From: Acidaminococcus intestini DSM 21505
GTDB taxonomy: Bacteria; Bacillota; Negativicutes; Acidaminococcales; Acidaminococcaceae
Assembly (NCBI RefSeq): GCF_000425045.1
Contig: NZ_KE384298.1
Location: 35,583-99,582, forward strand
DNA length: 64,000 bases
Direction of reading: 5' to 3'
A program made the translations under genes and the position numbers. The notes beneath the pieces are model-generated. The model searched no databases and had not been told where the DNA came from. It saw only the letters and a list, made by a program, of their open reading frames with translations. Numbering within the stretch: the first letter of the stretch is position 1; every line of letters starts with the position of its first letter. This document shows positions 40,425 through 46,257 of the stretch, in pieces.

Positions 40425-41765
40425 TTACTTTCCCTTTGCCTGCGCAAAGAGCCACTCCTTAATGGCATCAAAGGAATAGGCAAAGCTCCACGTATACATA
40501 TGGTTCCCGCCCTTAAATACTGTATAGTAGATATGGGTGTTAGGCCGTAACAATTGCTCTATTTTGTCATTGAGGGTCCCTACAGGAAGGGTGCTGTCCC
40601 AAAGCGTCTCATTCCGCGCCACCTTTACGCCTGCTTTTTCCCAGAGTGCGGTCGTTTCATTCATTGTGGGGTAGGCTTTATTATCCCCTTCACAGACGGT
40701 GATCCAAAGGGGCTTATCCTTGAGGACCTGCATTTCCTTGGGATCCCATTGGCAGGCCACAAGATACTGGGCCGCAAAAAAATCGGGGTAGCGGTCACTG
40801 ATGGCAATATTGGCCATACCGCCCTGGGACTGTCCTGTCCCATAGATCCTGTTTGGATCGACAGGGTAGGTCTTGACCGCATAATCAAGGAAATGCTTGA
40901 GCAAGGTGAGACCCTTTGTCCAATGATGATCATCGGCGGTCAGCATACCCAGTTTCGTCACAAGCTCAGACGTATACTGCGGGGCAACAACAATCGAAGG
41001 GTGCTTTGCCTGAAAAGCAGGATCGGTCCAGACTGTGGCCCCGTTGCCTTGATAAAGCGGCGTCGTAAGATCATCATTATTGCCGCTCATATCAACGCCA
41101 AAGTAGACCAGGGGCAGTTTCTCTCCCTGCTTGATTTCCTTGGGCAGATATAGATTATACGGCAGGGAAATGCCCGTTTCTGGGTCTGTAAAGACTTTCT
41201 GCGTAAAGCGGGAAAGATCGGGTTCAAGCGTTCGAGTCGACGCTATGAATCGGGTGGAGCCAGGGCTTTTATCCCCTCCCGCGCCAGTTACTTCCCCCAC
41301 TTGTTTGACTGCAATGCCAAGATCCGGGGCTTTGCGATCAGAATGACCATCAAGCTTGGGTTCCTGCCTCATTTTTTCCTTTGTTTCCTTTTGGGGCGGT
41401 GCGGGCAGTGTTTCAGGCACCGTATTTTCTGTCTTTACCTTCAAGATGACATAGCGGCCTTCCTCAGCCGCCTTAAGGGCGGGCAAAGAGCGAGTTACCT
41501 GGACGCTTTCAAGGGTACCCTTTGAAAGGACATAATCTTTGGGAGAAACGGAACTTGCCAGAAGGGGCTCACTGTAAGTCAAAATGACTTCCGAAATTTT
41601 TTCCCCATCGCCAAAGACGCGGGCCACACCGGTCACCTCGTTGACGGTGGGCGCCGCTTCTCCGCTTCCCATAAGGCCCACCAGGATCAGGCACAATAAG
41701 CCTTGCCCCAGCCTGCGGCCGATTACGGCTTCTTTTATGCCGCCTTTTTTTATCCGTATAAACAT
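40425..41765 (-). CDS. Secreted esterase/peptidase of the alpha/beta hydrolase fold with N-terminal Ig-like domain
   Basis: A 446-residue exported protein. The signal peptide spans about residues 1-38 (LGQGLLCLILVGLMGSGEA). An Ig-like region (about 40-115) is followed by a Pro/Lys-rich linker and a hydrolase domain from about 190. The nucleophile elbow reads GTGQSQGGMA, and GGNHMYTW holds a candidate His. It resembles feruloyl-esterase or PHB-depolymerase-like and prolyl-oligopeptidase-like enzymes, some of which have such an N-terminal domain. The substrate is unknown. It is divergent from the phosphatase operon and shares its 210-base promoter region. Confidence 0.75.
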   Translation of the reverse strand: MFIRIKKGGIKEAVIGRRLGQGLLCLILVGLMGSGEAAPTVNEVTGVARVFGDGEKISEVILTYSEPLLASSVSPKDYVLSKGTLESVQVTRSLPALKAAEEGRYVILKVKTENTVPETLPAPPQKETKEKMRQEPKLDGHSDRKAPDLGIAVKQVGEVTGAGGDKSPGSTRFIASTRTLEPDLSRFTQKVFTDPETGISLPYNLYLPKEIKQGEKLPLVYFGVDMSGNNDDLTTPLYQGNGATVWTDPAFQAKHPSIVVAPQYTSELVTKLGMLTADDHHWTKGLTLLKHFLDYAVKTYPVDPNRIYGTGQSQGGMANIAISDRYPDFFAAQYLVACQWDPKEMQVLKDKPLWITVCEGDNKAYPTMNETTALWEKAGVKVARNETLWDSTLPVGTLNDKIEQLLRPNTHIYYTVFKGGNHMYTWSFAYSFDAIKEWLFAQAKGK

Positions 41766-41866: not shown

Positions 41867-41894
41867 TTTACGGTAATTTTACCAAGCTTTTGCA
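41867..41894 (+). promoter_or_regulatory. 11-bp direct repeats upstream of the phosphatase gene, Pho-box-like
   Basis: TTTACG (41867), TTTACC (41878) and TTTGCA (41889) recur at exactly 11-base steps, like the TTAACA-type repeats bound by PhoP in Bacillus. The same DNA also contains an inverted repeat, GGTAA-TT-TTACC (41872-41883), as a dimeric repressor might use. The two readings exclude a firm call. The rest of 41766-41976 is a divergent promoter region. Confidence 0.45.
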
Positions 41895-41976: not shown

Positions 41977-43872
41977 ATGAACACAAAACGTAAGCTTCGC
42001 CTATTTATCCAACTGTCGATGTTAGGGGCCCTTTCCATGGGCATCACCTCGACCCATGATGCCGTGGCTTTTGCGGCAGCATCCTCCATCTCGCAGGTGG
42101 CTGAATTCCATAACCGGATGCAGGAGACGGCAGATAACGGTGCCATTACCATCCTGCCAATCAACCGTGCCAAATTCTGGGCCGGTCAGCGGTTTGACTT
42201 TGAGGTGGAATTTCCCAAAAACAGCACAAACTTCAACGTCGGCATCAACGGAGAAGGGGCAGAAAAAGTCTTTGGGAAAAAGGCCATCATCACAGACTAC
42301 GGCACCCACATTTCCTACCGCATCAACAATGTCACCTTTGACAAAATCGGTGAAAAAAGGGTAACGGCTTCCGCCAGCGGCCTTTCTGGAAGGCTCCAGG
42401 CAAAAGCCGCCTATACGGTGGTCCAGGAAAAAGCAAGGCGGCGCGCCAAGAATGTCATCCTCTTCATTGGTGACGGCATGAGCATGCAGGCAAAGGAACT
42501 GGGCCGCATCCTTTCAAAAGGCCTTTCAAACGGAAAATTCAATGACGTCCTTTCCATGGAAAAGATGCCAAGCCTTGCCCTTGTCACAACAAGCGGCTAT
42601 GACTCTATTGTAACGGACTCGGCAAACTCCATGTCCGCCTATATGACGGGCAATAAATCCGTCGTCAATGCCATGGGTGTCTACGAAAATAGGACCAAAG
42701 ATCCCCTCGATGACCCAAAGGTGGAAACGGCAGCGGAAATCCTCTCCCGCAGTAAGAAGATGAGCTACGGCATGGTTACGACCGCGGCTGTTACGGATGC
42801 TACACCAGCGGCCGTCACGGCCCATACGCGTCGACGTGGGGAACAAAACTACATTGCTGCCGATTTCCTCAGTCGCAGGAATCCGCCAAAAGTGGTCATG
42901 GGCGGTGGGGCACAGTTCTTCCTTCCGCTGCAGACGCCCGGTTCCAAACGCAAGGATGACCGTAACCTGATCCAGGAATTCAAGGATAAAGGTTATCAAT
43001 TTGCCGGCACCAAGACGGAATTAAATGCTCTCAACGGCGATCAGCCCATTCTGGGGCTTTTCACCATGAACCACATGAACGTTTACATGGACCGTGAATT
43101 CCTGCCCAAAAACAGCAAGGTCCTGAAAGGGTTTACTGACCAGCCTGGCCTCCTTGATATGACAAAAAAAGCCGTATCCGTACTTGAAAAAAATCCGAAT
43201 GGCTTCTTTCTCATGAGTGAAGGCGGCAGCATTGATAAGCAGCTCCATACCATGGACTGGCAGCGTTCCACCTATGACACCATCGAATTTGATCAAACCA
43301 TCGAATGGGCGCAGGACTACGCCAAAAAGCACAATGATGATACACTTATCATTGTCGTTGCGGACCATGCCCACGGCATCAGCATCAGCGGCACCTATAA
43401 GGAAGAAAATGGCAAGACCGGCCGCGAAGCGGTTCGCGTCTACGGCGATGCCAAGTGGCCGACCTTCGTTGATGAAAACCACGACGGGTATCCCGATAAC
43501 CCTGATCCGGATGTCACCCTGGCCGTGCAGTACGCCAATGCCCCGGACCATTACGAAAATTATCGTTTCCAGCCTGAACCGACTGTTCCGGCAACGACCG
43601 ATGCCAAAGGAAACGTCATTGCCAACCCGAAACGCGCACCCAAAGGAGCCCGTCTTGTCCAAGGCGACCTGCCGACGACAACCGGAGAAACGAGCGAATG
43701 CCATTCTGCCGACGATGTAGTACTCATGGCCCAAGGCCCTGGTTCTGAATACTTCCACGGCGTCATGGACAACACGGAAGTCTTCTTTGGGATCCTTCGC
43801 GCCCTCGGTGTCGACGCCCATAAAGGCACGCCGGAAGTTTCCTTTACATCAGAAAGCGGTGACAGCAAGTGA
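41977..43872 (+). CDS. Secreted alkaline phosphatase
   Basis: A 631-residue exported enzyme. After a signal peptide (about 1-30) a small beta-rich domain covers about 45-140. The alkaline phosphatase domain starts with NVILFIGDGMS. The active-site serine is in TDSANSMSAYMTG, where the fold places it. Further metal-site candidates are SEGGSIDKQLH and IVVADHAHG. It hydrolyses phosphate monoesters outside the cytoplasm and needs Zn and Mg. The ATG at 41977 follows GAGGAGG. The stop codon overlaps the GTG start of the next gene, so the four genes to 46206 are one operon. Confidence 0.9.
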   Translation: MNTKRKLRLFIQLSMLGALSMGITSTHDAVAFAAASSISQVAEFHNRMQETADNGAITILPINRAKFWAGQRFDFEVEFPKNSTNFNVGINGEGAEKVFGKKAIITDYGTHISYRINNVTFDKIGEKRVTASASGLSGRLQAKAAYTVVQEKARRRAKNVILFIGDGMSMQAKELGRILSKGLSNGKFNDVLSMEKMPSLALVTTSGYDSIVTDSANSMSAYMTGNKSVVNAMGVYENRTKDPLDDPKVETAAEILSRSKKMSYGMVTTAAVTDATPAAVTAHTRRRGEQNYIAADFLSRRNPPKVVMGGGAQFFLPLQTPGSKRKDDRNLIQEFKDKGYQFAGTKTELNALNGDQPILGLFTMNHMNVYMDREFLPKNSKVLKGFTDQPGLLDMTKKAVSVLEKNPNGFFLMSEGGSIDKQLHTMDWQRSTYDTIEFDQTIEWAQDYAKKHNDDTLIIVVADHAHGISISGTYKEENGKTGREAVRVYGDAKWPTFVDENHDGYPDNPDPDVTLAVQYANAPDHYENYRFQPEPTVPATTDAKGNVIANPKRAPKGARLVQGDLPTTTGETSECHSADDVVLMAQGPGSEYFHGVMDNTEVFFGILRALGVDAHKGTPEVSFTSESGDSK

Positions 43873-44312
43873 GATTGGAAAAGGTCTTCAGAAAGTTTCT
43901 TGCTTCCCTCTTCCTATCCATCACAATGAGTATCGCCTTGGAGGCCAATGCGGCCTCCTTGGATTTTTCTGATATGTACAGCGGAGCAAGTTCGGAAGGG
44001 CTCGTCTTTTCGGATACCCTGAATTCCCTGAATGGTTCGGAAGTGACCATGACGGGGTTCATGGCGCCCCCCTTAAAGCCCTCCATCAATTTCTTTGTCC
44101 TTACGGAAACGCCCATGGCTGTTTGTCCCTTCTGTTCCACCGATGCAGACTGGCCCTATAACATGGTTGTCGTCTACGTCAACGGCAGTGTGGACGCCCT
44201 ACCTTACGACCAGGAAGTGACCGTAACGGGGACCCTGGATCTTGGCAGCTATATGGATGGGGATACGGGCTTTGTGAGCCAGGTTCGCCTTCTTGATGCC
44301 ACCGTGGAATAG
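43869..44312 (+). CDS. Small secreted CPFC protein, DUF3299-like
   Basis: A 147-residue protein with a signal peptide (about 1-28). The body reads GSEVTMTGFMAPP, then a loop with CPFC (about residue 86), a beta-rich end and VTVTGTLDLGS. The GFM(A/V)P start and cysteine loop recall DUF3299 proteins, which in Proteobacteria often sit beside FtsX-type ABC transporters; this is a remembered resemblance. The cysteine pair could bind metal or act in redox chemistry. The GTG start overlaps the phosphatase stop (GTGA) and the Shine-Dalgarno site is weak, so coupling is likely. Function unknown. Confidence 0.75.
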   Translation: MRLEKVFRKFLASLFLSITMSIALEANAASLDFSDMYSGASSEGLVFSDTLNSLNGSEVTMTGFMAPPLKPSINFFVLTETPMAVCPFCSTDADWPYNMVVVYVNGSVDALPYDQEVTVTGTLDLGSYMDGDTGFVSQVRLLDATVE

Positions 44313-44321
44313 GAGGTCCAT

Positions 44322-44990
44322 ATGCTCAAAGTTACCCATTTGGTCCATCGCTATCCTGACGGAAGAAGATTCCTGACAGCCCTTTCCGTGCCCCATCTAG
44401 AAGCCTATGACGGCGAAGCGTGGTGCATCACAGGACCAAGCGGCAGTGGAAAATCGACCTTTCTCCATTGCCTTTCAGGTCTCCTGCGCCCTACAGAAGG
44501 GGATATTTCCTATAAGGGCCGTTCCCTTACCCTTGATATGTCGGACGCAGACCTTGATGTGTTTCGGGGCCGCACCATTGGCTGCCTCTATCAAAAGTTT
44601 AACCTCCTGCCCTTTCTTTCAGCCCGGGATAACATCCTCCTTGGCGCCCATTTTGGCGGTGTACCGAAAAAGGAGGCCGAAGCTAGACTGTCAGCTCTTG
44701 CAGAAAAGATGGGCCTCATGCACCTTCTTTCCCATTACCCCAATGAACTGAGCCAGGGGGAAGAACAGCGAACCGCCCTTGCCCGGGCTCTCATCAAGGA
44801 GCCGCCAATCCTCCTTGCCGATGAACCGACAGCCAACCTGGATGAGGATAATAGCCGCATCGTCATTCATCTGCTCCTTGACTATGTAAAAGCGCACAAC
44901 GCCCTAATTTTTGTAGCAAGCCATGACCCTATGGTGATTCGTTCCTTCAGCCACATCCTGCCCCTTCATAAAGGAGGCGCCCATGCTTAG
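44322..44990 (+). CDS. ABC transporter ATP-binding protein, LolD/MacB-like
   Basis: A 222-residue ATPase. Walker A is GPSGSGKS (about residue 39), the Q-loop YQKFNLLPF, the signature LSQGEEQRTALARAL instead of the standard LSGGQ, and Walker B ILLADEP with the DEDN D-loop. It belongs to the type VII group that works with FtsX-type permeases on lipoprotein release or efflux. The start follows an AGGAGG site nine bases after the CPFC gene, and its end overlaps the permease gene by eight bases. Confidence 0.92.
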   Translation: MLKVTHLVHRYPDGRRFLTALSVPHLEAYDGEAWCITGPSGSGKSTFLHCLSGLLRPTEGDISYKGRSLTLDMSDADLDVFRGRTIGCLYQKFNLLPFLSARDNILLGAHFGGVPKKEAEARLSALAEKMGLMHLLSHYPNELSQGEEQRTALARALIKEPPILLADEPTANLDEDNSRIVIHLLLDYVKAHNALIFVASHDPMVIRSFSHILPLHKGGAHA

Positions 44991-46206
44991 AAAAGCTGCG
45001 TTGCGGCAGCTCATCCACCGGCCCATGACAACCCTTCTCATGATACTCATCATGGGCCTTTCCCTTGGCATCAGCCTCTTTTTATCGGCCCTCCACGAAG
45101 GGATCCATGAAGGACTCACAAAGGCGACGGAACCGTTTAGCCTGCTTGTAAGCTCACCAGGAAGCCAGTATCAGCTCGTTCTGACGTCCGTCTTTTTACA
45201 GGACCGGCCCCTCCCCAACCTTCCCTATGAAGAAGTGGATGCTCTCTCAGGCCAGAAAAATCTCGTCAGTTTCGCCCTGCCCTTGGCCTTTGGTGATTCC
45301 TACGGAGGTTATCGCGTTGTCGGGACGACGGGCGGCATCTTTGCCATGACGACGGGGAAAAATAAGGACAAGTGGCTGATCCTTCAGCAAGGCCGTCCCT
45401 TTTCCGCGCCCTATGAAGCCGTCATTGGTGCGGACGTCGCGCGGCGCCTTCATCTAACCGTTGGATCCACCTTTTCTTCCCTCCACGGTCTCGTCCAAAA
45501 AGGCCGCGCCCACAAGGAGCATCCCTACACCGTCGTTGGCATCTTAACCGACGTCAAAGGGCCCTATAACCAGGCCATCCTGACTTCCATCGAGTCCATT
45601 TGGGACGCCCATGAGCACAAGAAGAATAAGAGGCTAGAGGCCAAGAAGGCGGATAATAAGACGCACAATGACCATAAGGAAGTAAGCGCCATCCTCGTCG
45701 AACCTGTAGGCTACAGCGAAGCCTACCAGCTTGCCGCAAAATATCAGCACCGCAAAGACGCCATGCTCGTTTTCCCGTCCCAGAGCATCGTCCAGCTCTT
45801 TAATCTCATGGGCTGCGGCGAAAGAATGTGGCAGAAAGTGGGACTTTTCCTCATAGTTCTTTCCACCCTTATCGTCGTTATGACAAGCTATCTTTCAAGC
45901 CTTTCGAGACTTCGGGAATATGCCATCATGCGGGCCCTCGGGGCTACGGGAAAAGACATTTCCCACATTTTCCTTTGGCAAAACGCCTTTCTCGTCCTTT
46001 GCGGCACCGCTGCAGGCACCCTTTTAGGAATCGGGGCCTATACTCTCTTAGCCCACGCCCTTGCGTCAACGACGGCCCTTTCGCTGCCACTTTTTTCCTT
46101 TTCACCGGTCATGGGAATCCTCCTTGCTGCCACGGTGGCAGCAACCCTTCTATTAAGTCTTATTCCTTTGAAAATCCTGAAAGAAAAACTGGCCTCCATG
46201 ATGTGA
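44983..46206 (+). CDS. ABC transporter permease, FtsX/MacB type
   Basis: A 407-residue permease with one N-terminal membrane helix (about 17-37), a large extracytoplasmic domain (about 38-280) and three C-terminal helices. The FtsX core is visible in LSRLREYAIMRALGATGKDI. A Lys/Glu/His-rich insertion (HEHKKNKRLEAKKADNKTHN) lies in the external domain, near residue 215, and could bind metal (inference). With the ATPase it forms a type VII system that transmits force rather than a classical importer. Its partners in the operon are the phosphatase and the CPFC protein. Confidence 0.88.
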   Translation: MLRKAALRQLIHRPMTTLLMILIMGLSLGISLFLSALHEGIHEGLTKATEPFSLLVSSPGSQYQLVLTSVFLQDRPLPNLPYEEVDALSGQKNLVSFALPLAFGDSYGGYRVVGTTGGIFAMTTGKNKDKWLILQQGRPFSAPYEAVIGADVARRLHLTVGSTFSSLHGLVQKGRAHKEHPYTVVGILTDVKGPYNQAILTSIESIWDAHEHKKNKRLEAKKADNKTHNDHKEVSAILVEPVGYSEAYQLAAKYQHRKDAMLVFPSQSIVQLFNLMGCGERMWQKVGLFLIVLSTLIVVMTSYLSSLSRLREYAIMRALGATGKDISHIFLWQNAFLVLCGTAAGTLLGIGAYTLLAHALASTTALSLPLFSFSPVMGILLAATVAATLLLSLIPLKILKEKLASMM

Positions 46207-46211
46207 TCCTT

Positions 46212-46257
46212 AATAGAAAAACTCCTTCCAATCCATGCCGGAAGGAGTTTTTCTATT
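46212..46257. terminator. Bidirectional terminator after the phosphatase-ABC operon
   Basis: An 18-bp perfect stem (AATAGAAAAACTCCTTCC) with a 10-base loop carries A and T tracts on both arms. It serves the operon and the convergent dipeptidase gene. Confidence 0.87.

Follow-up and report, generated by a model that had tools for sequence, protein, structure and literature searches.

A conserved four-gene operon that may pair a PhoA-type alkaline phosphatase with its own extracytoplasmic zinc-loading machine

Introduction

Operons carrying ZrgA (PF10986) together with a DUF3299 protein have been described as Zur-regulated zinc-starvation genes (PMC9817125, PMC9820375, PMC11481552). The NosDFYL system is required for a metal centre outside the cytoplasm, most of all when the metal is scarce (PMC7558416, PMC6530538), and type VII ATP-binding cassette (ABC) proteins act by mechanotransmission, in which the substrate need not cross the membrane (PMC5985334, PMC12646458). 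Here a four-gene operon is described from a stretch of 64,000 nucleotides (nt) of Acidaminococcus intestini DSM 21505 (contig NZ_KE384298.1, positions 35,583 to 99,582 of the forward strand; hereafter the window, with positions counted from its first letter), which encodes a PhoA-type alkaline phosphatase, a small secreted protein designated CPFC, an ABC ATPase and a permease of the FtsX/MacB type. No published description of this set of genes was found in the open-access literature.

In our judgement the evidence is evenly poised as to whether this is a phosphate-starvation operon which pairs PhoA with its own extracytoplasmic machine for loading metal, presumably zinc. The fuller proposal, advanced more tentatively, is of a widespread and undescribed ATP-driven zinc-insertion machine dedicated to PhoA, built from a ZrgB-like type VII ABC system and a new zinc carrier (CPFC), switched on by phosphate starvation and passed on together with the enzyme across many phyla; it would be the zinc counterpart of the copper-loading NosDFYL.

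Results

Organisation and conservation of the operon

The four genes, identified from open reading frames (ORFs) and Pfam matches, lie on the forward strand between positions 41977 and 46206 in the order PhoA, CPFC, ATPase, permease. The start of the CPFC gene overlaps the PhoA stop by 4 nt and the permease start overlaps the ATPase gene by 8 nt, in line with the tight packing, overlaps and coordinates given in an earlier, sequence-only reading of the window. All four genes are confirmed and make up a single unit, which ends in a probable bidirectional terminator (46215-46254, no strand assigned; 15-bp stem, -22 kcal/mol, T-run) and is flanked on both sides by genes on the opposite strand, encoding an EstA-like esterase and a C69 dipeptidase.

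CPFC was found in 17 of 59 genomes sampled from the family (A. massiliensis and A. provencensis were both in the genus sample), and of the 16 other family loci that were fully read, 15 keep this gene set and order while their flanks differ; the sixteenth (G057) is broken past the ATPase start. When 84,980 GTDB species genomes were scanned with a CPFC alignment, 363 relatives were returned, the best 80 of which were read. PhoA lies directly upstream of CPFC at all of these 80 loci. The ATPase and permease genes follow, one or both being missing only at L077 and L104, which lie at contig ends, and at L080, which is broken. The 80 loci include representatives of Negativicutes, Clostridia, Limnochordia, Synergistota, Alphaproteobacteria and Betaproteobacteria, as well as metagenome-assembled genomes assigned to Myxococcota/Deltaproteobacteria, Planctomycetota and Anaerolineaceae, and the same set is found on plasmids of Deinococcus radiodurans, Meiothermus silvanus, Thermus thermophilus, Paracoccus and Shinella. 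The grouping of the four genes in the sequence-only reading, which had named an unconserved neighbourhood as grounds for abandoning it, is therefore strongly supported. A chance neighbourhood is rejected in view of gene order conserved across several phyla with unrelated flanks, and a phage origin in view of the lack of relatives in viral contigs and phage records.

Among 201 Negativicutes genomes, CPFC was encoded just downstream of this type of PhoA in all 43 cases (43/43) and was found alone in none. The tree of PhoA matches that of the permease in detail, also where both contradict species relationships: in both, the copy from the window clusters with Veillonella instead of A. massiliensis, and that of Taylorella with Negativicoccus. 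Given this agreement and the linkage that is kept, the operon travels as one block. In a Paenibacillus-like genome (L129) a PhoA of a different lineage is followed by the same ATPase-permease pair and a CPFC-like protein in another order, the latter having lost its second cysteine (CPFD).

In uncultured Phascolarctobacterium (L035/L080) the break after the ATPase start is followed by other ORFs, one of them helix-turn-helix-like; this may represent decay, insertion or misassembly.

PhoA

PhoA (41977-43872, forward strand) starts at an ATG preceded by AGGAGG, and is the only gene in the genome that matches this PhoA family. It belongs to PF00245 by profile (E=2.7e-77; 260.9 bits against a cut-off of 24.4) and by its full set of metal and catalytic residues (D166, S215, D274, T276, E415, D420, K421, H424, D463, H464 and H576), which are identical in all 80 operon-linked PhoA proteins, with the equivalent of R166 present in 79. 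The protein carries an extra N-terminal, Ig-like domain and a signal peptide which, like those of its relatives, resembles an ordinary Sec signal and has no twin-arginine translocation (Tat) motif. A cysteine count found none in 43 and one in 26 of the 80 operon-linked enzymes, within the part of the protein that was counted. A Dsb-type disulfide role for CPFC was considered and is rejected as its main function, because 43 of its 80 partner phosphatases contain no cysteine.

ATPase and permease

The ATPase (44322-44990, forward strand; PF00005, E=9e-32) is of the LolD/FtsE/MacB type, its best NCBIfam scores being to LolD and FtsE, both under the curated cut-offs. The permease (44983-46206, forward strand) matches MacB_PCD and FtsX and is of the type VII (MacB/FtsX/LolE-like) class, with four transmembrane helices and a large periplasmic domain; its AlphaFold model has a mean predicted local distance difference test score (pLDDT) of 92.1, and the best fold matches in the PDB are MacB, LolCDE, HrtBA and YbbAP.

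The periplasmic domain contains a group of histidines (45484-45618, forward strand), namely H168 (45484), H177 (45511), H210 (45610) and H212 (45616). H168, H177 and H210 are conserved in 81, 80 and 81 of 82 aligned permeases respectively, and H212 is invariant only in the close set of 14 sequences. Directly after H210 lies a disordered loop predicted with low confidence (residues 210-232, 45610-45678, forward strand, HEHKKNKRLEAKKADNKTHNDHK; pLDDT 52-63), which in most relatives is rich in histidine, aspartate and glutamate. Across 79 operon-linked permeases histidine makes up 18.7% of the loop compared to 1.7% of the rest of the protein, and 60 of the 79 have at least three histidines there; the Taylorella loop has 52 in 150 residues. 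A PhoA-less relative from Bacillota (L128) has a permease with a similarly extreme His/Asp/Glu stretch.

Two sequence features had been singled out beforehand. The Lys/His-rich insert of the permease is real, the window copy showing weakly a trait that is strong in the family. The LSQGE signature of the ATPase, previously called non-standard, is present (44748-44762) but unremarkable: sister operons carry LSGGE, LSIGE or LSQGE at this site, and its status as a special signature is rejected on account of the variable third residue.

Homologous permeases were also located on plasmids, within fur-zrgA-ATPase-permease-DUF3299 (Phaeobacter) and zrgA-ATPase-permease-DUF3299 (Aeromonas and Sulfitobacter) clusters; the ZrgA-type permeases L120 and L121 reach 200-210 bits against the family model and likewise have H168, H177 and H210. 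A Methylomagnum plasmid (L123, 0.9-11.4 kb) encodes a related ATPase and permease with a CopC-type protein and a ZnuA-type binding protein. A TonB receptor and NikR are encoded nearby on the other strand of this plasmid, which is another metal setting for this type of permease.

CPFC

CPFC (43869-44312, forward strand) has a GTG start and is a secreted, OB-like protein of 147 residues. Its Cys86 and Cys89 (codons at 44124 and 44133) are followed by DADW, and both cysteines are retained in 85 of 85 aligned family members. CPFC belongs to no named family, and sequence comparison with Pfam, PHROG and the PDB gave no match; a match to TIGR03943 was below threshold (E=0.014), and in annotated plasmid records, including those of Deinococcus radiodurans and Rhizobium, it is listed as a hypothetical protein.

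The AlphaFold model of CPFC (pLDDT 87.5) has one PDB fold match with E<0.001, which is to 4HSP (E=4.2e-4), the DUF3299 protein PA4066 from a Zrg-type operon of Pseudomonas aeruginosa. Profile comparison with DUF3299 gave 83% with a narrow CPFC alignment and 95.4% (E=1.7e-8) with a broad one; the comparison was uninformative when only two DUF3299 sequences were used and clear with broader alignments. Profile and fold thus support a distant kinship of CPFC to DUF3299/ZrgE. In place of the DUF3299 motif GACIHxPPPPxNQ, CPFC has CPFCxxDADWP, the fold being similar, and it misses the Pfam model for DUF3299 (PF11736), which had no match in the genome, though control genomes gave none either. The suggested likeness to DUF3299 hence stands as remote kinship and not as family membership. 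The broader comparison with the zinc-related loci of Proteobacteria is upheld by this kinship, by the related permeases in ZrgA and DUF3299 operons and by the histidine-rich loop. Membership in Zrg proper is rejected, there being neither a ZrgA nor a Pfam DUF3299 protein: no ZrgA (PF10986) is encoded in the four-gene unit, which ends at its terminator, and the sister loci have unrelated flanks.

In Alphaproteobacteria, CPFC carries a Tat-like RR signal in 18 of 27 cases by a strict pattern and in the other nine by eye, compared to none of the 27 PhoA partners; no Tat motif was seen in CPFC from Negativicutes and Synergistia. Export of folded CPFC through Tat, beside a PhoA taking another route, suggests that CPFC may pick up something, perhaps metal, before export.

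Regulation

A Pho box is predicted at 41867-41883 on the forward strand, 93 nt before the PhoA start codon (TTTACG-GTAAT-TTTACC, TTTACGGTAATTTTACC; an 11-nt direct repeat), and is the only match in the window, where 0.02 would be expected. The pattern TTTACR-N5-TTTACM has four exact matches in the 2.28-Mb genome: at the PhoA operon, upstream of pstS, beside a gene for a Na/Pi-cotransporter-like protein (L137; 115 nt upstream, on the opposite strand to the gene) and at one site without obvious reason. Promoters of sister operons are also enriched in Pho box-like repeats. The mean number of mismatches was 3.00 compared to 5.44 in shuffled sequences (standard deviation 0.12) for CTGTCAT-N4-CTGTCAT in Alphaproteobacteria, and for TTAACA-N5-TTAACA-like repeats it was 2.49 compared to 3.72 (0.10) in Negativicutes and 3.00 compared to 4.43 (0.21) in Synergistia. 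In the same three groups, mismatches to the Zur box were slightly below those of the shuffled sequences, the Pho boxes being far clearer.

A stem (GGAGGCC/GGCCTCC) with a T-rich tail is located at 43940-43958, just after PhoA and inside the region coding for the CPFC signal peptide; it is a possible partial terminator, which would lower expression of the ABC genes relative to PhoA.

Neighbouring esterase

The divergent gene beside the operon (40425-41765, reverse strand) encodes a secreted esterase with an EstA Ig-like N-terminal domain and a polyhydroxybutyrate (PHB)-depolymerase-like core. It is not part of the operon in relatives.

Discussion

A machine that loads PhoA with zinc is the simplest reading that uses every observation, and is to us the most likely one. 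On phosphate starvation a large amount of a zinc enzyme would be made outside the membrane. PhoA, which needs two zinc and one magnesium per active site, would leave the cell without metal, probably through Sec. The permease would gather zinc outside the membrane by means of its histidine cluster and its flexible acidic, histidine-rich loop, while CPFC, with its invariant Cys-Pro-Phe-Cys followed by Asp-x-Asp, would carry the zinc from permease to PhoA or act as a docking factor for the two. Hydrolysis of ATP on the inside would power conformational changes on the outside (mechanotransmission), by which zinc could be handed to PhoA even when scarce. Linkage, predicted regulation and metal-binding character are computational results; zinc as the metal, its binding by CPFC and its transfer towards PhoA are what we infer. 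The suggestion in the sequence-only reading that the ABC system handles metal for the phosphatase, or matures it, would fit such a scheme.

Several observations weigh against this proposal. E. coli PhoA is active without any such system. The loop in the window has four histidines and many lysines, the lysines exceeding the histidines, and the permeases of Deinococcus and Meiothermus lack the loop. Three genomes from a single genus of Negativicutes carry this PhoA alone, without the ABC genes, and a PhoA of this type without them was found in one large-genome member of Bacillota. Conversely, three Clostridia-like genomes (L130, L131 and L132) encode ATPase, permease and CPFC in that order without PhoA, and the machine is thus not tied to PhoA everywhere. 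There was no clear Zur site in the promoters of sister operons. Finally, export of cobalt-pyochelin has been proposed for PA4065 and PA4064 on the basis of AlphaFold and genetics (PMC11481552).

The CPFC proteins of these three Clostridia-like genomes have an extra C-terminal domain of approximately 110 residues, and their permeases have an additional Cys/His stretch (SLACLFHSHG).

General metal homeostasis is an unlikely explanation, in which massive PhoA synthesis under phosphate starvation would upset the zinc balance of the envelope and the ABC system would respond by uptake, buffering or export of zinc, sharing a promoter with PhoA without interacting with it. Descriptions of Zrg relatives as zinc acquisition systems (PMC9820375, PMC9817125) and of PA4063-4066 as exporting metallophore-bound metal (PMC11481552) favour it, as do the Clostridia-like genomes in which the ABC and CPFC genes stand without PhoA; against it weigh the compact arrangement with PhoA, kept across phyla and seen with two different PhoA lineages, a permease fold that is not of the importer type and the lack of a ZrgA-like or ZnuA-like solute-binding protein in the unit. 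A role in substrate presentation is considered improbable. Here the permease would extract phosphate-bearing lipids (e.g. lysophosphatidic acid or polyprenyl phosphates) from the membrane and offer them to PhoA, much as the type VII system YbbAP-TesA supplies a periplasmic hydrolase with substrates from the membrane (PMC12646458). The permease has YbbAP among its fold matches and the operon looks Pho-regulated, but PhoA acts mainly on soluble esters, and the histidine-rich loop, conserved histidines, CPFC cysteines and kinship to zinc-starvation operons would be left unexplained.

Still less probable, in our estimation, is that the ABC system secretes, releases or folds PhoA, moving or maturing a protein as MacB and Lol do their cargo. 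Fold matches to MacB and LolCDE and the position of PhoA as first gene are consistent with such a role, which includes the export of PhoA that had been considered in the sequence-only reading. Against it stand the Sec-like signals of PhoA, the absence from the unit of any MacA-like or TolC-like partner, the presence of the operon in groups generally held to have no typical outer membrane (Anaerolineae and some Clostridia) and the cysteine counts of PhoA, which speak against disulfide maturation by CPFC.

Alkaline phosphatase is a textbook secreted zinc enzyme, normally thought to acquire its zinc unaided. If the zinc-loading proposal is true, zinc can be inserted outside the cell by an active process dedicated to the task, and type VII ABC transporters have a new job, with a role suggested for DUF3299/ZrgE; it would also link scarcity of phosphate to scarcity of zinc, a co-limitation long discussed in nature.

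Comparison with known systems

Classical PhoA operons such as E. coli phoA have the same enzyme family, full ligand set and Pho control as the operon described here, but neither an ABC system nor CPFC, and the window PhoA has an extra N-terminal domain. YbbAP-TesA likewise pairs a type VII ABC system with a periplasmic hydrolase (PMC12646458). It differs in that TesA is a lipid esterase, YbbP has approximately 800 residues and CPFC is lacking. We know of no histidine-rich loop in that system. NosDFYL is alike as an idea, an ABC pair and small envelope factors being encoded with one secreted metalloenzyme, and differs in metal (copper) and enzyme (nitrous oxide reductase); to our knowledge, NosL, NosD and NosY have no homology to CPFC or the permease.

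The closest system is Zrg (ZrgABCDE of Vibrio and PA4063-PA4066 of Pseudomonas), which shares a homologous split ABC ATPase and MacB-type permease with periplasmic histidines in common, a small secreted distant homologue of CPFC with an OB fold (DUF3299/ZrgE, 4HSP), and a histidine-rich stretch, which in the PhoA-CPFC operon lies within the permease, unlike in Zrg. Zrg has ZrgA, no phosphatase and, in the papers cited above, regulation by Zur, whereas here PhoA takes the place of ZrgA and the promoters carry predicted Pho boxes. The parts of the operon belong to known superfamilies and the set itself is without the two defining features of Zrg (ZrgA and Pfam DUF3299); proof of zinc transfer would raise it above a variant of known systems.

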